Assembly: GCF_028471945.1 (NCBI RefSeq)
Contig: NZ_CP110128.1
Span: 3,522,501-3,586,500, forward strand
Length of the DNA: 64,000 nucleotides
Direction of reading: 5' to 3'
Source: Pseudomonas sp. WJP1
GTDB lineage: Bacteria > Pseudomonadota > Gammaproteobacteria > Pseudomonadales > Pseudomonadaceae
Below the pieces are notes generated by a model that worked only from the letters and a program-made list of their open reading frames with translations, did no database searches and was not told the DNA's origin. Below, one piece after another: positions 26,427 through 36,317 of the stretch; the first letter of the stretch is position 1, and every line of letters starts with the position of its first letter. Both the position numbers and the translations under genes were made by a program.

Positions 26427-27225
26427 CGGATCAAGTTTGCGTGGTCACGCAGCAATGTGCCGGACGGTTTCAAGCTCGTCCGGCAACGGGTGTTCACGGC
26501 TCCAGGGCTCAAACGAGCATCAACATGGCGCTGTATTGGCTGCAAGCAATAATAAAAGTAGCGTGGCAAGGAAGGTAATATATTTAAACTCCATTTTTGA
26601 GGTTGAACCAGATAATAACTCAAGGCTTTTAAGGTGAAGCCTAGGCATCATAAAGCTAATGCAACTGGCATAAAAATTCGCTTTTTCGATTCCCTTCACT
26701 CCCGCCACGACAATAAAAACGAATCCCGAAAAAACCAAAAATAAGTACGACCCCAATCATGTCGTTAAATACGTTATTCGTTTCTTGTACGCGAAGCTCT
26801 ACAAGTCACTTTCTGCCAAAAGACTGGCGCCAAAAAACACTCTTAATGTTTTGGCAGCGCGTTTGAACTATGCGCAGTCGCTACCAGTGCCGGCTAGCAC
26901 TCTCAATACCTTTTCGTAATAAGCGTAACTCACTTTTAATAGAAGCAGCCTCATTTTGCGTGGCTAAACTTCTGTTCAAGGCCCTTCACAAGTGGATCCA
27001 ACGGGGTGTAGGTGTAATTGGTTTGCGCAAAAAGACTTTAGCGCAAGTTCAGTTTTCAACTATGAACTGGATCACCCTCTGGCTCTAGACTTTAACTTTA
27101 AATAGGTGGACCACTCTTGCTCCAGTAGAAGTTATCGGCTAGCTGATGCAGTTGAAGATTTATCGGCGGTTGGACCAGAGTGAAATAGCGTTTATTCCTC
27201 CTTTTCGCCAACGAGGACCGAAACG
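26427..27225. other. Non-coding left edge of the accessory island
   Basis: No gene is recognised in these 800 bases, which are clearly more AT-rich than the pca genes. A hairpin TGCCGGACG/CGTCCGGCA at 26458-26485 probably belongs to the pcaIJ transcript. A leftward 78-codon frame (26520-26756, TTG start) would give two hydrophobic stretches but has no ribosome site. Compositional change right after pcaJ marks the likely boundary of acquired DNA. Confidence 0.55.
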
Positions 27226-29310
27226 ATGACGGATATCCAGCAGCTGGTTCCACGGGTGCCAAAGCCTCCCATGAGGCGGCTGCGCGTATACGCTTTCGAT
27301 CCACAGTCTTCGGTCGAACTGAAGACTGCGGTCATTAATGACGCGGTCATTGAGCTTCCATGGGAAACACGTTGGGAAGACCAGTTGGAGCCAGGGCCCA
27401 TTAACGACTATCTCGAGGTGATCGATTACGATCCCAGTTCAGACCTTTTTTACGCCCCTGTCGATCTCAACGCGCCCTTTCTGCTGGCTCAAGATGGGTT
27501 ACCACCGTCCGAAGGTTGCCCACAGTTCCATCAGCAGATGGTGTTCGCGGTTGCGATGCGCACGATCCGTAATTTCGAGCGGGCGCTTGGGCGAGTGGTC
27601 TTGTGGGCTGGCGACAGGAATGCATCTAAAGACACTCCGGATCGGAGCTTCACACGTCGGTTGCGGATCTATCCCCACGGCCTTCGCGAAAAGAATGCCT
27701 ATTACAGCCCCAGCAAGCGCGCGCTGCTTTTCGGGTACTTCAAGCATCCAGAAGACGATACCGCTTCCAGTAGCTGGGTCTTCACTTGTCTGTCGCAAGA
27801 CATCGTTGCCCATGAGACAACACATGCGATTCTTCACGGAATGCGGCAGCGCTCGATCGAATCCACCAATCTCGACTCACTGGCCTTTCATGAGGCTTTT
27901 GCCGATATCATCGCGCTGCTCCAGCATTTCAGTTTGACGAATGTCGTACGGCATCAGCTGGCACAGAGTAAAGGTTCGCTGCGCGAGCCGGGCCTGTTGA
28001 ATGGACTTGCACTTCAGTTTGGTCACGCTACGGGACGCCGCGGGGCGTTGCGCTATGCACTGCAGTATCTAGGGTCTCCCGTAACATCGGCCGGTGCTAC
28101 ATCCCGGGCCGATAAGAACGGCAGTGGCAAAATCAAGCCACCCAAGAAACTCTCTGAAACATTCGAAGCGCACGAGCGTGGTGGCTTTCTCGTTGCTGCC
28201 ATCTTTGATGCATTCGTCACCATTTACGAGCATAAGACTGCTGATCTCTTTCGCCTCGCGCGGTCGAGTGCCGCACCCAATCAGGATTATCTCTCTGCAG
28301 AACTCGTTGACCGTTTGGCTGTTGAGGCCGGAAGAGCCGCGGACCAGGTGCTTCGCATGTGCGTGCGGGCGCTGGACTATACCCCCCCGGTTGACCTGCA
28401 CTTTGGCGAATATTTGCGGGCAATTATCACGGCCGATACTGATCTGGTGGCTAACGATCCGATGCGCTATCGCATCGCTTTCGTCGAAGCCTTTAGAAAG
28501 CGTGGCATCACCGTGCCCGGTTGCATCTCGATGGCACCTGACAGCTTGCTATGGGATGAGCCGGATCTTTCTGAGACCCCCGAGTTTGGTGAAGCCGGCG
28601 GGAATCCCGAAGAGGGGCTCAGCAACGTCTTCTCTGAACTGTTGGCCACACTCAAACTGTCCATTTCACTCGGGCCCATGCACGCGTCTAGTGTGCATGG
28701 AGCCTCTGGCGGGGGGCGACGCAACCTCCGCGAAGCCGCTGTCGGCGTAATCCAGCGTAACCAGTTACTCATTCATGAGTGGTTCAAGGAAGACAGTGCG
28801 TTCGACGAGGGGTGGGAGAAGCTGATCGGCATGCGTCTGCTTGCCTTCGATGATCCTCGTCGCAAGGCACCGCTGACCAACGTCCCTACATTGTGGACAG
28901 GCAAGGCGAATGAGAATGGCGAATTTTCCAAGGTTCCGAAGTTCGAGGTGCATTCAGCGCGGATCGCTCGGCGAGCCGGACCCGAAGGGCAAGAGACGCA
29001 TCAACTCATCATCCAGATGACGCAGAAACGACGTGGTTACGACGATTCGATCGACCAAGAGAAGGCGGATGCCGGTGACACTGCTCTCCTCGCGCGTGAC
29101 CCCGACTTCTGGTTCCGCGGCGGCGCGACCATTCATATTGACCTGCGCGATGGCAAGCTGATTCGGATCATCAGAAAGAATGTTTGCGACGACAAACGCT
29201 TGGCTGCCCAGCGTGACTTCCGTACAGGCAAAACGTCGGGACAGGCGATTGGCTCACGTGTGAGCGCCAATCTTGAGCCATTTGCCTTCCTGCACAGGAG
29301 CTTCGAATGA
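27226..29310 (+). CDS. Gluzincin-type (thermolysin-like HExxH) metallopeptidase domain protein
   Basis: The 694-residue protein has HETTHAILHG (zinc ligands H196 and H200, E197) and, 23 residues on, AFHEAFADIIALLQHF. The latter matches the NEAISDI helix of thermolysin, with E223 as third ligand. There is no signal peptide and no prodomain, unlike secreted M4 enzymes, so it would act in the cytoplasm or be exported by a dedicated system. The ~350-residue C-terminal part contains no domain I recognise. GAGGACC precedes the ATG. Its stop overlaps the next start (ATGA, 29307-29310), so it is translationally coupled to the MBL protein. It is the first gene of the multi-hydrolase run. Confidence 0.8.
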   Translation: MTDIQQLVPRVPKPPMRRLRVYAFDPQSSVELKTAVINDAVIELPWETRWEDQLEPGPINDYLEVIDYDPSSDLFYAPVDLNAPFLLAQDGLPPSEGCPQFHQQMVFAVAMRTIRNFERALGRVVLWAGDRNASKDTPDRSFTRRLRIYPHGLREKNAYYSPSKRALLFGYFKHPEDDTASSSWVFTCLSQDIVAHETTHAILHGMRQRSIESTNLDSLAFHEAFADIIALLQHFSLTNVVRHQLAQSKGSLREPGLLNGLALQFGHATGRRGALRYALQYLGSPVTSAGATSRADKNGSGKIKPPKKLSETFEAHERGGFLVAAIFDAFVTIYEHKTADLFRLARSSAAPNQDYLSAELVDRLAVEAGRAADQVLRMCVRALDYTPPVDLHFGEYLRAIITADTDLVANDPMRYRIAFVEAFRKRGITVPGCISMAPDSLLWDEPDLSETPEFGEAGGNPEEGLSNVFSELLATLKLSISLGPMHASSVHGASGGGRRNLREAAVGVIQRNQLLIHEWFKEDSAFDEGWEKLIGMRLLAFDDPRRKAPLTNVPTLWTGKANENGEFSKVPKFEVHSARIARRAGPEGQETHQLIIQMTQKRRGYDDSIDQEKADAGDTALLARDPDFWFRGGATIHIDLRDGKLIRIIRKNVCDDKRLAAQRDFRTGKTSGQAIGSRVSANLEPFAFLHRSFE

Positions 29311-30878
29311 CTCGACAAAAGAAAGGCGCCCCCGCTAACGCGAAGAGCCAGATAATCGTACGCATGTACCGGGCGTTGGGTGCTCAAGGGCGCGAATATG
29401 CCGGCTTTCTGGGCGATTGTTTCCTTATCCGCGTGCTCAACGGCAATGAACCACCTGCACATATCCTGATCGACTTTGGCATTCTGATGGGCAGTGCGCA
29501 GGCCGAAGCACGTATGCGGCAAATTGCTACCGATATCGTCAAGACGACAGGTGGCACCTTCGCGGCGGATGGCAGCGTACTGACAAAAGGTTCGCTCGAT
29601 TTGCTGGTCATCACGCACGAACACTGGGACCACATCTCTGGTTTTTCGCAGGCGCAAGACATCATCTTCGGCGGCCTTGCCATCAATAAACTCTGGATGG
29701 CCTGGACCGAGGATGACAACGATGCCTTTGCCAATCAGCTACGCCAGGATCGCGACAAGCGCGGGGTTGCATTGGCGGCTCTTTCCGAAATCATTCAGCA
29801 GGCTGCGGCGAGTACAACCCCATCGCTGTTTGCCGCCGATCGGCAGGTTGCACTTTCCGGCCTCGACGCTTTTTTAGGGCCACTTGTTGCAAACAGTGGG
29901 GCCGAGCCGGTCGATGCCGCGCTCGGTGCCGCGCGGGTCAAAACCAAGCGGCTTAAAGGCCGCGACATCATGGAAAAGGTCAAAGCTGAGGCGCTCTCCA
30001 GGGAATTCCTGTCACCCGGTCAGGTTATCGCCGCTCCTGGAGCACTCAAGGCCTTTGTTCTCGGCCCTCCGCGCGATTGGGAGAAGCTGAAAAAGGACAA
30101 ACCTTCGTCGGGTCCGGCGAAAGAGACGTATCTGGATAACAGGGCCTTTGAGGATCTTCTGTTTCGCTTGGTCGACGGTGAGTCCCACGACCCCGATAAC
30201 GACTTGCCGTTCGCAAACCGATCACATCGCATCCGTACAGACCAGGTTCGCTCGGCGGACAGTGCGTCGAGCGCCATTGATGTAAACACCGACACCGGTA
30301 TTCTCCGATGGCTCAATCAGCACTACTGTGCTGGGTCCGACAGAGACGGACGCGATCAATCGCGTCGGGCAATCGATTCCGATTGGCTCGGTGCCGCCGG
30401 CCCGCTTGCGATGCAACTCGACTCTGACACCAACAATACGAGCCTGGTGCTTGCGTTTGAGCTTCCCGACGAAACCTTCATGCTTTTTCCTGGCGATGCA
30501 CAGGTTGGCAATTGGTTGTCCTGGCACGATCAGAACTACAAGGACGACACCCGTGAGCTCTCGGCGACTCAGATTCTCGGGCTTGTGCGCTTTTACAAGG
30601 TCGGGCACCACGGCAGTCACAACGCAACGCTGAAGGACAAAGGCCTCGACCTGATGACTCATCGCGAGCTGGTGGCAGCGATTTCCACTGACGAGGCTTT
30701 CGGCAACCAGCAAGGCGCCAAAGGTTGGCAGATGCCTAATCCTCATCTGAAGGAGGCCATCCTGGCCGCCACCAAAGGGCGAACGTTTCGCAACGATGAC
30801 TCCCTCAATGCGGACTACACGCCGTTCAAACACTCTCTGAATTCCACAGATCTCTATCTTGAGTACACCGTGTTTTAA
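29307..30878 (+). CDS. MBL-fold hydrolase, ComEC-C-terminal-like
   Basis: The 523-residue protein has the metallo-beta-lactamase motif VITHEHWDHISGF (H104, H106, D108, H109), a later PGDAQVGNW (~396) and KVGHHGSHNATL (433-439), the pattern of ComEC/Rec2-type MBL domains that are often nucleases or phosphodiesterases. There are long insertions (about 115-370) absent in small family members. No signal peptide is present. It overlaps the metallopeptidase gene by four bases and is followed 18 bases later by a 33-codon gene. In conflict-type operons such proteins are often effectors or regulators; here the substrate is unknown. Confidence 0.85.
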   Translation: MTRQKKGAPANAKSQIIVRMYRALGAQGREYAGFLGDCFLIRVLNGNEPPAHILIDFGILMGSAQAEARMRQIATDIVKTTGGTFAADGSVLTKGSLDLLVITHEHWDHISGFSQAQDIIFGGLAINKLWMAWTEDDNDAFANQLRQDRDKRGVALAALSEIIQQAAASTTPSLFAADRQVALSGLDAFLGPLVANSGAEPVDAALGAARVKTKRLKGRDIMEKVKAEALSREFLSPGQVIAAPGALKAFVLGPPRDWEKLKKDKPSSGPAKETYLDNRAFEDLLFRLVDGESHDPDNDLPFANRSHRIRTDQVRSADSASSAIDVNTDTGILRWLNQHYCAGSDRDGRDQSRRAIDSDWLGAAGPLAMQLDSDTNNTSLVLAFELPDETFMLFPGDAQVGNWLSWHDQNYKDDTRELSATQILGLVRFYKVGHHGSHNATLKDKGLDLMTHRELVAAISTDEAFGNQQGAKGWQMPNPHLKEAILAATKGRTFRNDDSLNADYTPFKHSLNSTDLYLEYTVF

Positions 30879-30896
30879 TCCGACGGAGCAAGCACC

Positions 30897-30998
30897 ATGG
30901 TTTTCGATCTGGAGCACGCCAAACAATTTCTTGCCACCGCCAGCTTACCGCCGCAAATCGCGAGCGTTGAACTCGGCGCCCTCTGGCGGGAGAGATAG
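30897..30998 (+). CDS. 33-residue microprotein in the multi-hydrolase operon
   Basis: ATG 30897 is preceded by GACGGAG at good distance and opens a 33-codon frame, MVFDLEHAKQFLATASLPPQ then IASVELGALWRER. It ends three bases before the next ATG (31002), and the last codons (CGG GAG AGA) supply the ribosome site for that gene. The tight packing and coding-like composition suggest a real gene. One amphipathic helix and a short tail are likely. I recognise no family; an accessory, inhibitor or chaperone role for its neighbours is conjecture. Confidence 0.55.
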   Translation: MVFDLEHAKQFLATASLPPQIASVELGALWRER

Positions 30999-31001
30999 AT
31001 C

Positions 31002-32837
31002 ATGGCCAAATGCCCCTTTGCCGAACAGCGCCCCATTACCGGTACCAGCGGGAGTTACACGGGCGGCGTGTTCAAAATTGTCCATCACACGACGGAAGGT
31101 GGTAGCGCAGAGGGCGCCTTTACCGCGTTCAAGTCCAACCGGTCGGACCCGCACTTCACGGTGGACGCCAGCAAAATTTACCAGCATATCGACACCGACA
31201 CAGCGGCGCGCTCGCTACGCAATGCAGAAGGCGGTGTACAAACCAACCGGGATCGAGCCCTGCAGATAGAAGTTGTCGGTTTCGCCGGTAAACCCAAAAA
31301 CAAAGCGACGCTGAAGAACCTGGCCCGCCTCTGCCGTTGGCTCGAGCAGATTCATGACGTCCCGTTGGTTTGGCCGGCGGGGCTGCCCAAGCCCGCAAAA
31401 AACGGCAAGGATCCGGGCGGTCATTTGCGCAGTACGGAGAACTGGGCCAAAGGCGGACATTTCGGACACTGCCATGTACCCGAAAACACACACTGGGATC
31501 CCGCCTATACAAAGACCGAGGTCGAGTACCTGATGGCGGCAAAATTTGATGCCGCCGGCAAGTTAACCAATGCCCAGGATCCTGCCGTTGTAGCACTGGA
31601 AAATCAGCCGATGGCAATAGACGGCGATACGACGTTCGAGATCATGGCGGATCATGCCGATGTTGGGGAGGCACCAACGAGGAATGTACAGCCCGTCAAT
31701 GTCGCACTGAGTGAGCAACCGGAACCTGCAGCACGTCGCCCGGAGTCAGGCGCGGGACTGTGTCTATCCGGCGGTGGTTACCGCGCAATGCTGTTTCACG
31801 TGGGAAGCCTTTGGCGCCTCTATGAAAGCGGTCAGCTCTTTAGGCTGCAGCGTATTTCGAGCGTGTCGGGCGGCTCGATCACAAGCGCGGTTCTCGCACT
31901 GGCCTGGAAGCATCTACCTTTTGATGGTGCTCGGGCGCCCTTCGAGGCCCGTGTGGTCGGACCCATTCGTGAGCTTGCAAGACGCACGCTTGACGCCGAA
32001 GCGATCATCGGCGGCATTCTGCTTCCCGGCAGTATTGGGGAGAAAGTCGCTGCGGCCTATGACAAGTACCTCTTCCACGGGGAAACATTGCAGGCCCTGC
32101 CTGATACCCCTCGCTTTGTAATCAATGCCACCAACGTGCAATCCGGCGTGCTGTGGCGTTTCTCCAAACCTTATATGGGTGACTATCGCGTTGGCCGCAT
32201 CGAAAATCCTGATTTTTCGATCGCCCGGGCGGTCGCAGCCTCTTCAGCCTTTCCACCAGTACTATCACCGCTGACCATCGAACTTCATCCGGCCGCATTT
32301 AAACCTGGCTCGGGCGACGACATGCAACGTCCACCTTTTACCTCTGATGTCGTACTGGCCGACGGCGGCGTTTATGACAACCTGGGCCTGGAGACCGTTT
32401 GGAAACGCTACGAAACGGTGCTTGTCAGCGACGCTGGCGCCAAAATAAAACCAGAGGAAGAGCCTAAACACGATTGGCCACGCCACGCCTATCGCGTCCT
32501 GGATCTGATCGACAATCAGGTGCGTAGTCTTCGCAAACACGCGCTCATAGCGAGCTATCAAGCCAAACCTCATGATCCCGGCAAGCGCCTGGGAACGTAT
32601 TGGGGAATAGGCACCCCGTACGATCACTATTCGGGCCGCGCACTCACTCTCAGTTGCAAACCTGCGCGCACTCAGGAGCTGGCCGGCATCGCTACGCGTC
32701 TGAAGCGGCTGGATGAGGAGTTGCAGGAACGATTGATCAATTGGGGATACGCGGTTACGGATGCGGCTTTACGCACATACGTCGATCCCAAGCTGAATAA
32801 ACCCAACGCGTTTCCCTATCCCGATAGCGGTGTCTGA
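31002..32837 (+). CDS. Fusion of amidase_2/PGRP-like domain and patatin-like phospholipase
   Basis: The 611-residue protein joins two hydrolases. Residues ~10-190 resemble N-acetylmuramoyl-L-alanine amidase type 2: KIVHHTTEG (H28/H29), DPHFTVDASKIYQHIDTD, and GHCHVPENTHWDPAY with further metal-ligand candidates. After a ~50-residue Pro/Glu linker, a patatin domain follows with LSGGGYRAMLFHVGSL (oxyanion loop, ~255), SVSGGS (nucleophile S289) and ADGGVYDNLG (D454). Patatins cleave acyl chains from phospholipids. There is no signal peptide. One polypeptide able to attack both peptidoglycan and membrane lipids would suit a toxic effector or a lytic defence protein. GGGAGAG precedes the ATG. Confidence 0.85.
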   Translation: MAKCPFAEQRPITGTSGSYTGGVFKIVHHTTEGGSAEGAFTAFKSNRSDPHFTVDASKIYQHIDTDTAARSLRNAEGGVQTNRDRALQIEVVGFAGKPKNKATLKNLARLCRWLEQIHDVPLVWPAGLPKPAKNGKDPGGHLRSTENWAKGGHFGHCHVPENTHWDPAYTKTEVEYLMAAKFDAAGKLTNAQDPAVVALENQPMAIDGDTTFEIMADHADVGEAPTRNVQPVNVALSEQPEPAARRPESGAGLCLSGGGYRAMLFHVGSLWRLYESGQLFRLQRISSVSGGSITSAVLALAWKHLPFDGARAPFEARVVGPIRELARRTLDAEAIIGGILLPGSIGEKVAAAYDKYLFHGETLQALPDTPRFVINATNVQSGVLWRFSKPYMGDYRVGRIENPDFSIARAVAASSAFPPVLSPLTIELHPAAFKPGSGDDMQRPPFTSDVVLADGGVYDNLGLETVWKRYETVLVSDAGAKIKPEEEPKHDWPRHAYRVLDLIDNQVRSLRKHALIASYQAKPHDPGKRLGTYWGIGTPYDHYSGRALTLSCKPARTQELAGIATRLKRLDEELQERLINWGYAVTDAALRTYVDPKLNKPNAFPYPDSGV

Positions 32838-32887
32838 TACGAGACATCGAATGTTGTCCCCTCCCGCATTTCGTAAGGAGACCAGGC

Positions 32888-34489
32888 ATGCCTTCTTTAC
32901 GTCTCATCCTGCTTTTTGATGGCACCGACAACACGCCCAAGGATCGCACCAACGTCTGGCGTACCTATGGGTTGCTCGCGGAAAAAGACGTGAATGGTGT
33001 TCCCCAGAAAAAGGAATACATCACGGGAGTCGGTACCGACGTTGGCGAACTCGTCCGAGGCAGCATCTTTGGCCAGGGCGTTGCCCGCAAAATTCGTGAA
33101 GGCTACGAATGGCTGGTCGAGAATTATCAGGACGACACGGAGATTTACGTCTTCGGCTTCAGCCGCGGCGCGTTCGCCGCTCGCAGCCTCGTGCAGATGA
33201 TCGCCATCTGCGGACTTGCACGCCCGGACACGCTCAAGGAATGGAGCACCAAGGAAATTTTCGACCGTTATGCAGATATTTCGCAGCAGGATAGCGAGGT
33301 CATCCGCCCCATGTGGCGATTGCGCTACTGGCAGGGCCACCCGACGGAGGCGCCTCCCGGCTGGCATCCCGACCGCTTGGAGGCCCGCCTCATCGATGAC
33401 GTCTACGTGCGTGCGGTGAAGATCCGTATGGCCGGCCTGTGGGACACCGTTGGCGCCATCGATGCCGACGCCCTGCAAAACAAAGACGCACACCGCGGCA
33501 AATCCGCCGCTCACAACGTGCGACCCACACGGGCGCAGGGATACGGCCACCATGCCCTTGCCATTGACGAACACCGCCCAATGTTCGAGGCCTCCCTGTG
33601 GCGCGCCTTCGCCGAGACGGGAAAGGAAGCGCAAACACTCGACGATTTCACTGAATGCTACGAGCAACGCTGGTTTATCGGTGCGCACTCCGATGTTGGC
33701 GGCGGCTACCAGGACGATGATCTACCCAATATTACCCTGCAGTGGATGATGCAGAAGGCCACTGCGCTCGGCCTTGCGTTCACTCACACCATCGAGCCCC
33801 GCCCTGGCGCGTGGCACGACCCCATTCACGACAGTTTCAAAGCCTTCGCTGGTCAGATCCTCAACATCTGGGACGAAATCAAAAACGGCGACCAGCGTAA
33901 TTACCGAGATATCGGCAGGCTACCCCGCAGTATCGTCACGTCTGGAGGTACGGCCGGCTCCCTGTGCACCATTAATGAAACCATTGATGATTCCGTGCTA
34001 CGCCGCTGGCAGGAGGACCCGACCTACCGCCCGCCCAAGCTGGTGGAGTACTTTGTTCGAAACCCCGGTGAGCTTCCCCACGGTACAACCACGGCGCAAC
34101 GAACCCAGCGCATCTACGCCGAAAAATACTGGAACCCGACCGGTGTGTTCCTGCGCGCCGGCGTCCGTTACCGAGCCCACGTCGTGCCCGGGGTTGGCGA
34201 ACCCTTACGCGATCTCAAGTACATCGCGCGCAGTATCGACGGCGAGGACTGGGACAGCGTCGCCCACAGGGCTGCCTCACTCGTCCATGGCAAGCGCAAG
34301 GATGACGCCAAATGGTTCGCCCTCATCGGCACCGTGGACAAGTACCACCCTTGGGTAATGAAAGACGGTGGTGAGTTCACCGTGCCCGTCAGCGGCCAGA
34401 TGCTCTGCTACTTCAACGATGTGCAGATCGAACTAGGGTTTTACGATAATAATTCTGGCTGGGTAATGTTGGAAATCGAGCGACTCTAG
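32888..34489 (+). CDS. DUF2235 alpha/beta hydrolase (Tle1-like phospholipase fold)
   Basis: The 533-residue protein starts LRLILLFDGTDNTPKDRTNV and has the nucleophile elbow FGFSRGAFAARSL (S92), and AHSDVGGGYQDDDL (H267, D269), the DUF2235 arrangement found in type VI lipase effectors of the Tle1 group. A beta-rich C-terminal region follows from ~390. TAAGGAG is ideally placed before the ATG, 50 bases after the amidase-patatin gene. No VgrG, PAAR or obvious immunity gene is adjacent, so type VI delivery is not supported by context. It is the last member of the compact hydrolase run. Confidence 0.87.
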   Translation: MPSLRLILLFDGTDNTPKDRTNVWRTYGLLAEKDVNGVPQKKEYITGVGTDVGELVRGSIFGQGVARKIREGYEWLVENYQDDTEIYVFGFSRGAFAARSLVQMIAICGLARPDTLKEWSTKEIFDRYADISQQDSEVIRPMWRLRYWQGHPTEAPPGWHPDRLEARLIDDVYVRAVKIRMAGLWDTVGAIDADALQNKDAHRGKSAAHNVRPTRAQGYGHHALAIDEHRPMFEASLWRAFAETGKEAQTLDDFTECYEQRWFIGAHSDVGGGYQDDDLPNITLQWMMQKATALGLAFTHTIEPRPGAWHDPIHDSFKAFAGQILNIWDEIKNGDQRNYRDIGRLPRSIVTSGGTAGSLCTINETIDDSVLRRWQEDPTYRPPKLVEYFVRNPGELPHGTTTAQRTQRIYAEKYWNPTGVFLRAGVRYRAHVVPGVGEPLRDLKYIARSIDGEDWDSVAHRAASLVHGKRKDDAKWFALIGTVDKYHPWVMKDGGEFTVPVSGQMLCYFNDVQIELGFYDNNSGWVMLEIERL

Positions 34490-34644
34490 CCATCGGCGCG
34501 CTCCGCGAGGGGTGATCCTGTGGCTCTTGTCGTTAAGCCATGCGAGGAGCACCCATGGCCGCTGATTCGTCTGCTACGTTCTTGTACTGAATCGCCCGGG
34601 TTTCGTCGGCAGGCGAGCCATGGTTCGGCGCCATAGGAGGTCAT

Positions 34645-35151
34645 ATGTTAGCGGTGGATTTTGCCAATATCGTAACTCCCTTGGCCTGGCCAGTCACATC
34701 GTTACTTATTGCAGCGCTCTTCTACAGGCCAGTCTGTGCCGTTCTCGAACGGCTCGCAGAAACAGTCACATTCAAAACAATAAAGGTAAAGGTACTGGGT
34801 GTGGAGGCTGAGCTCACACCTGAGTACGCTCGTACTGTTCTGCATGAGCTTCTGGATGACATTACAGCAACGTCAAATCAGCTAACACCAGAGGAGGTCG
34901 CTCTCTTTGACTCTATTTTGGTTGCAGCAGGAAAAAAATCTGTCGCTGAACTTATTCCCGGCTTTGAACGTGAGAGTCCAGAGCATGCGCAATTGCGAAA
35001 TCTTCGAGATCAGAAGCTGGTACTGCCGAAAGAGAAACGCTCTTGGAAGGCTACTAGTCATCCGGTCGTTACCCCGTATGGGCATCTCGTCGCCAGCCTA
35101 CGTACAACTAACGCAGAACGAGCGCGCTCGTTCAAACAGAATGGGGCATAG
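34645..35151 (+). CDS. Hypothetical membrane-anchored protein
   Basis: The 168-residue product has an N-terminal membrane segment (about 5-30, LAWPVTSLLIAALFYRPVCA), an amphipathic region and a cytoplasmic-looking C-terminal domain of ~110 residues with EELDD-like acidic helices and a basic end. ATAGGAGGTCAT makes a strong ribosome site. The position two genes after the hydrolases suggests a membrane partner, possibly a sensor or immunity protein, but I recognise no family. A short 11-codon frame with its own GAGGAG (34555-34590) lies just upstream and may be a truncated gene start. Confidence 0.65.
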   Translation: MLAVDFANIVTPLAWPVTSLLIAALFYRPVCAVLERLAETVTFKTIKVKVLGVEAELTPEYARTVLHELLDDITATSNQLTPEEVALFDSILVAAGKKSVAELIPGFERESPEHAQLRNLRDQKLVLPKEKRSWKATSHPVVTPYGHLVASLRTTNAERARSFKQNGA

Positions 35152-35828: not shown

Positions 35829-36317
35829 TTAACCTGGTGCAGGTTGAAATTTCCACTCCACGTTCGGTTGGTCTACACAATCCCACTGCGTGATGGCACC
35901 TCCGTTTCCTTGAGTTGCGCCCTGCTGGTGAACACATTTTCCGCTATGCTGAAACTTTAAGAAAAAATATCCGTCACTTGCTGGTATCTGTTTCAATTTC
36001 ACGTTCGGCTGGTCTACACAATCCCACTGCGTGATGGCATCTCCGTTTCTTTGAGTTGCGCCCTGTTGATGAACACATTTTCCGCTATGCTGAAACTTCA
36101 AGAAAAAATATCCGTCGCCTGCGGGTATTTTCTCCAGTTTCACGTTTGGCTGGTTCACGCAGCTCCATTGCGTGATGGCGTCTCCGTTTCCTTGAGTCGC
36201 GCCATGCTGATGAAGGCACTTACCACTATGTTTCGCCACAACAAAAAAATACTCTGAGGCATTAGCTTGTGAGTAACTAGTCAAAAAGCAAAAAGCAAAT
36301 AAGATGATTTTCTTCAT
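35829..36317 (-). CDS. Secreted ricin-type beta-trefoil lectin
   Basis: The 162-residue protein has a signal peptide (MKKIILFAFCFLTSYSQANA, cleavage ~20) and three ~47-residue repeats, each with SGKC-HQ-GATQ and ITQWDCVDQPNV, close to the Q-x-W motif of ricin B domains. Three such repeats make one beta-trefoil, which binds carbohydrate. Length is close to the minimum for a single trefoil. GAGAGGG precedes the ATG. The gene is AT-rich. It may be secreted to the periplasm or outside and bind glycans; a role with the membrane protein downstream is possible, since they share strand and spacing. Confidence 0.82.
   Translation of the reverse strand: MKKIILFAFCFLTSYSQANASEYFFVVAKHSGKCLHQHGATQGNGDAITQWSCVNQPNVKLEKIPAGDGYFFLKFQHSGKCVHQQGATQRNGDAITQWDCVDQPNVKLKQIPASDGYFFLKFQHSGKCVHQQGATQGNGGAITQWDCVDQPNVEWKFQPAPG
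35859..36260 (-). repeat. Three tandem 141-bp direct repeats within the lectin gene
   Basis: Units begin at 35859, 36000 and 36141, exactly 141 bases (47 codons) apart. The first two units are nearly identical at DNA level over about 120 bases; the third, which encodes the N-terminal repeat, is more diverged. This fits recent internal duplication or homogenisation of the last two trefoil lobes. Confidence 0.8.

Follow-up and report, generated by a model that had tools for sequence, protein, structure and literature searches.

Operons of bacterial gasdermins (bGSDM) set a protease beside a membrane permeabiliser, some of them also having lysozyme/amidase and phospholipase genes close by, and mimicry of holin-endolysin lysis has been raised for these operons (PMC9612521, in its accessible part). 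The NTP-dependent conflict systems of Kaur et al. 2020 include operons joining peptidases, nucleases and wall-attacking effectors, trypsin/S8-NucA among them (accessible text of PMC7159879). Here we describe a gene block that invites comparison with both, located in a 64,000-nucleotide stretch (hereafter the window; NZ_CP110128.1, positions 3,522,501 to 3,586,500) of the complete 7.0-Mb chromosome of the soil bacterium Pseudomonas sp. WJP1. It encodes a predicted thermolysin-like protease (A), a metallo-beta-lactamase (MBL) fold hydrolase (B), the remnant of a gene X, an amidase-patatin fusion (C) and a DUF2235 phospholipase (D). Between them, these enzymes might attack protein, nucleic acid, membrane and cell wall. 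Like the bGSDM operons, so far as the accessible text describes them, it has an adjacent protease (A in the window) with wall-hydrolase and phospholipase genes. It is unlike them in its candidate pore-former X, which has a predicted Cyt fold and is deleted in the window, and in its protease, which is thermolysin-like with a constant MBL partner. With the systems of Kaur et al. it shares operons of peptidase and wall-attacking effector, but no NTPase was recognised in the cassette and the accessible text of that paper does not describe a thermolysin-like protease-MBL pair. In the accessible open-access literature we found no description of such a pair, none linking gasdermin, Cyt1A and bacterial operons, and none of a Cyt-like pore-former with a peptidase in abortive infection. 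The open-access literature also yielded none joining gluzincin, MBL and patatin, or DUF2235 and patatin in defence.

The conserved unit of this block is the A-B pair, and C and D are swappable add-ons. An A-profile scan of genome contigs gave 292 relatives, the best 80 loci being kept (some near-duplicates); distant forms of A are under-sampled because only these 80 of the 292 were retained. Genes in the fetched loci were called by a simple codon-usage script, and neighbours were counted up to 10 kb on each side of A where the contig allowed, with the window excluded. B was directly after A in 78 of the 80 loci, and the two exceptions (L022 and L059) both end at contig edges. When 299 Pseudomonadota genomes were sampled evenly, five proved to contain A (E<1e-40), and these same five contained B, next to A; there were also three weak matches to A alone (E 5.7e-20 to 1.8e-4). 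By record title, the loci include Pseudomonadota, Bacteroidota, Acidobacteriota, Planctomycetota, Chloroflexota and Armatimonadota, with one plasmid case in Deinococcus. Distances among the A and the B proteins agree (Mantel r 0.68, permutation maximum 0.11), an agreement to which shared taxonomy contributes. Within Pseudomonas the pair is sporadic and accessory: A matched in 9 of 199 genomes including the window, one other exceeding 80%. B adjoins A in seven of the other eight, three of which carry shorter relatives of 39-41% identity; the A match in the eighth (G023) was judged spurious. The protease-MBL pair, with its invariant active-site residues, is found in a number of bacterial phyla and also on conjugative plasmids; of 39 plasmid records with an A match, 21 were typed conjugative.

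The earlier note on this sequence had proposed the whole five-gene combination as a candidate new system. The genes do co-occur in other genomes, and co-occurrence of A and B within a mobile multi-enzyme unit of conflict type stands. The five-gene unity does not, as A, B, patatin and DUF2235 were together only in the window and in 4 of the 80 loci, namely L014 and the near-identical Mesorhizobium L040-L042, whose patatin is without amidase. The exact A-B-C-D form of the window was found in L014 only. The contig bearing L014 (P. fluorescens PS862, NZ_CABVII010000019.1) has a second, different A-B locus (L035) ∼29 kb away, A being at ∼13448 and ∼42195. In another genome (G412, C1:3206162-3207578) the B beside A matches piecewise in different open frames and is possibly frameshifted.

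A (27226..29310, plus strand; 694 aa) had been called gluzincin-like from its HExxH motif, and this was borne out. Residues H196, E197, H200, E223 and D227 (HExxH and the downstream Glu of ExxxD) do not vary in any of the 79 A-B loci compared, of which the window is one. In fold comparisons the structure model of A (pLDDT 80.8) resembled M36 and M4 proteases, chiefly along residues 13-445, and its fold qualifies as thermolysin-like at the level of the model; residues 446-694 were barely covered by the fold searches. With the window A as query, Pfam, including its M4 and M36 models, gave no family at E<=0.1, PADLOC matched no model and Foldseek returned nothing at E<=0.001. PF01447 is precomputed for 3 of the 120 listed homologues, all long forms, and the 1186-aa homologue in L066 has a Peptidase_S8 domain in front. 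In B (29307..30878, plus strand; 523 aa), the partner of A, the HxHxDH motif is likewise invariant in the 79 loci. Its Pfam match to Lactamase_B is weak (1.1e-3, below cut-off), and PADLOC gave weak LmuA-type (1.2e-9) and RTasMBL (1.3e-5) matches, both around HxHxDH. Viral contigs held five distant relatives of A and one of X. The former, on IMG/VR contigs L094-L098, are 27-31% identical to A and have neighbouring families in common; they are perhaps a phage-borne thermolysin-like protein. A candidate relative in L009 was judged spurious: the match is C-terminal, lies by eye in a transporter gene, and the genome is without B.

The whole A-B-C-D block is a mobile cassette. It spans 26801..34493 on the plus strand, comprising A, B, the X scar, C, D and a leader of ∼425 bp, and is 92% identical in DNA to L014 across 7,714 alignment columns; outside the cassette, nothing longer than 150 bp in 22 kb of L014 matches the window. 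P. baltica (L015, L181) matches the window in A-B and C only, at 73-74%. The gene coordinates, 4-base overlap and gaps of 18, 3 and 50 bases given by the first reading are exact, and a 168-aa gene at 34645 lies outside the unit. There was no direct or inverted repeat of at least 11 bases between 26501-27000 and 34381-34800, and no clean empty site among the relatives fetched, where the flanks match different places. A megablast search of 20,395 E. coli records, covering near-identical cassettes and not distant matches, gave none.

A 33-aa open reading frame (ORF) between B and C (30897..30998, plus strand), previously taken for a microprotein gene, was ruled out as a gene; it consists of both ends of a deleted X of ∼258 aa. 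Positions 30901-30946 correspond to the first part of intact X, and 30957-30985 to its last part. Compared with the X of L183, 46 bp of the start are preserved at 98% and 29 bp of the end at 93%, and the protein alignment scores 89, against a best of 36 in 2,000 shuffles. Intact X (258-259 aa) lies before amidase-patatin in P. baltica and in L183, an IMG/VR contig on which a phage primase and a CII-like gene follow 3-6 kb further on; any genes upstream are lost beyond the start of this contig. L014 retains only 72 bp of the X end (88%). Since the window and L014 each keep sequence that the other lacks, two separate deletions are the simplest explanation. Of the four fused-type loci, L015 and L183 have intact X without D in the available stretch (in L183 as judged from ORFs of at least 180 aa), and the window and L014 have D without X. 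This pattern fits a replacement of X by D, although four loci are too few for proof. X and DUF2235 never occurred together in the A-B loci compared (X in 10; D in 9, counting the window), which in such small numbers is no more than suggestive.

Intact relatives of X are predicted, with moderate model confidence, to adopt the pore-former fold of Cyt, volvatoxin A2 (VVA2) and Evf, a likeness that concerns X alone among the cassette proteins. Gasdermins were not among the fold matches listed, which does not exclude them. Four X proteins gave no Pfam Cyt match, and one compared with PDB sequences had no match at E<=10. A precedes X in nine genome loci and in L161, and X also stands beside a trypsin-like protease (L145) and a CHAT protease (L146); elsewhere it is accompanied by unrelated protease, wall-hydrolase and lipase families, the components that have been described for the bGSDM operons. 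X, amidase and patatin occur together in the same order in Pseudomonas, Sphingomonas and Rubellimicrobium.

As the earlier note had it, C (31002..32837, plus strand) is a fusion, by Pfam of Amidase_2 (aa 26-167) and a patatin phospholipase (aa 253-466). D (32888..34489, plus strand; 533 aa), which the note called a DUF2235 alpha/beta hydrolase, is a DUF2235/Tle1-like phospholipase (PF09994, 1.3e-58, aa 5-289). The amidase matches the phage endolysin family phrog_17214 (1.3e-9). Amidase and patatin are separate neighbouring genes in Sphingomonas (L016, L019, L024, L038, L053). D has a GxSxG motif at residue 90, which we take to be its active-site motif, and its best match across 198 other Pseudomonas genomes is 41% identical. 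Patatin was present in 40 of the 80 A loci, a C-like amidase in 9 and DUF2235 in 5, with none of the three in 38. Other add-ons have alike functions and unrelated folds (PLD in L044, muramidase in L058). A Pfam search with 30 of the 84 operon neighbours found no family shared between any two of them, among the 25 of 36 families listed.

To assess the neighbourhood of A-B we used 13 distinct annotated plasmid records (H1, 5, 9, 10, 11, 12, 13, 14, 18, 19, 22, 25, 26), drawn from 30 of the 39 records; the other 17 of these 30 were set aside, 7 because they lacked annotation at the match, while 10 did have it and included near-duplicates. The controls were stretches from the opposite side of the same plasmids, two being shifted away from record ends. 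Defence terms (CBASS/SAVED, Abi, DarT/macro, TcmP, DUF1837+DEAD (HamAB), restriction, SIR2, ThiF/multiubiquitin, CHAT), drawn up after the test loci had been seen, were found at least once in 8 of the 13 A-B loci (H1, 5, 9, 10, 12, 19, 22, 26). Defence genes were found in 3 of 13 controls (Shedu, SIR2, SIR2), a lone DEAD/DEAH helicase (L177) and a Fic protein (L175) being uncounted. Addition of Mov34 and MoxR makes it 10 versus 3 (Fisher p=0.017). PADLOC placed HamA/HamB immediately after B in L156, together with a CBASS cyclase, and found a SAVED effector in L149, Dsr2 in L150 and a weak E1-E2 in L148; the CHAT protein of L163 had no PADLOC match. The association of A-B with defence genes is no more than suggestive. 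Of the earlier proposal of a conflict operon (defence or effector), the recurring mobile multi-enzyme unit of conflict type held, and a defence role is suggested by the neighbourhood only, at p=0.11 for the original terms.

The reading that we favour, to which we give somewhat less than an even chance, is that the block is a mobile, non-secreted, multi-enzyme abortive conflict (self-destruct) cassette built on the A-B pair. Hydropathy reveals no signal peptide in any of the four proteins, in agreement with the first reading. Cyt protoxins are activated by proteolysis. The wording "bioactivation cascade" occurs in the title of PMC7052140. We infer protease-triggered, self-directed lysis because of the missing signal peptides, the endolysin-like amidase, the gasdermin-operon parts and the proteolytic activation of Cyt. 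A trigger of some kind would unleash A; in relatives, A, or the joined S8 domain in S8 fusions, would clip X, and the clipped Cyt-fold protein would open the inner membrane. For an amidase in the cytoplasm to act, the inner membrane must first be breached, and X, patatin and DUF2235 are the candidates for this. In the window, where X is lost, the phospholipases C (patatin) and D (DUF2235) would make the breach in its place, giving the amidase half of C access to peptidoglycan. B would destroy nucleic acid or another phosphodiester, and the cell would lyse ahead of phage maturation. A narrower proposal, possible but on balance doubtful, is that Cyt-fold proteins are bacterial analogues of gasdermin: in A-B-X-amidase-patatin operons X would be cut by the thermolysin-like protease and perforate the membrane of its own cell, with amidase and phospholipases finishing lysis and the DUF2235 phospholipase substituting for the lost X in the window lineage. 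An intracellular suicide protein would then have the fold known from the insecticidal toxins Cyt and Evf. If A-B is a suicide module, it would add a type of defence beside gasdermins, Cyt-fold pore-formers would gain an intracellular role, and the proposed holin-endolysin mimicry as an immune strategy would become testable.

Several observations weigh against a self-destruct cassette. No sensor was recognised in it, the neighbours having been scanned in part; on a Hymenobacter plasmid (L157, 7607-10000), an LmuB-like ATPase (2.2e-20) encoded ∼25 bp ahead of A-B is a possible one, and a TPR-S/MAP3K_TRAF_bd protein lies upstream of a patatin-A-B locus (L087:6488-7885). Lysis is not the whole story for A-B because patatin, amidase and DUF2235 are all missing from the searched stretch of 38 of the 80 loci. 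The two X copies in L147 are without such partners among ORFs of at least 200 aa. In the cytoplasm the amidase would need to do no damage. The defence enrichment is weak (8/13 versus 3/13, Fisher p=0.11), toxin-antitoxin genes, excluded from these counts, are commoner in the controls (5/13 versus 1/13), and L158, L159 and L164 name no defence gene. The same 38 loci, within the searched stretch, would suit a regulatory or degradative module, in which the target of A is a cellular protein and that of B a nucleotide signal, with lipases and amidase as opportunistic neighbours in gene-exchange hotspots. Housekeeping-like neighbours (L017 and L025 by eye; a PhoD-like phosphatase beside L069) and the varying family and side of the add-ons point the same way. 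We consider it rather unlikely, as the ordered X-amidase-patatin recurs in three genera and the add-on function repeats through unrelated folds (patatin, DUF2235, PLD, muramidase).

Patatin effectors of the type VI secretion system (T6SS) exist, and an interbacterial or predatory weapon, with A-D as cargo of a secretion or contractile injection apparatus aimed at rival cells, has to be weighed as well. D shares the catalytic domain PF09994 with T6SS Tle1 phospholipases, whose name this Pfam model bears, and elsewhere in the genome T6SS_Vgr is matched at C1:4263231 and PAAR six times. However, D has no VgrG/PAAR partner near: as first noted, neither PAAR nor T6SS_Vgr matched within the window, and the nearest lie ∼0.7 Mb off. 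TssK gave no match and TssC covered 40 of 301 positions, the search being confined to these apparatus genes and not extended to other injection systems. The 13 annotated plasmid loci name no T6SS gene, so that constant company with type VI genes, the earlier note's alternative, was not found; at the edge of L149 there is an RHS-repeat protein. No immunity gene was recognised, which counts against the weapon and the self-destruct cassette alike. T6SS delivery is thus disfavoured, and we regard a weapon as improbable. Still less probable is that A-B serves as the effector module in a known defence system, Lamassu-like or other, with its sensor sometimes elsewhere. The LmuA and RTasMBL matches of B and the L157 ATPase speak for it; against it, the best match to LmuA covers 81 of the 523 residues of B, around the MBL motif common to both, the ATPase had a relative in no other locus then compared (phmmer), and PADLOC found no LmuB in 10 window proteins (25.0-37.4 kb). 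Lamassu membership of the window cassette was rejected, its LmuB partner being missing.

Some further genes were observed. T6SS_Vgr and PAAR matches at C1:4257350-4263536 and 2918186 of the source genome may mark a decayed or incomplete T6SS. An animal-type haem peroxidase gene (L038:8391-9941) ends just at the start of A (gap -1), and oxidative enzymes are neighbours in L163 (a GMC oxidoreductase) and L148 (a tyrosinase-family gene) as well. Just beyond the cassette, in an AT-rich stretch of the window, lies a ricin-type beta-trefoil lectin gene (35829-36317, minus strand; 4.4e-26).
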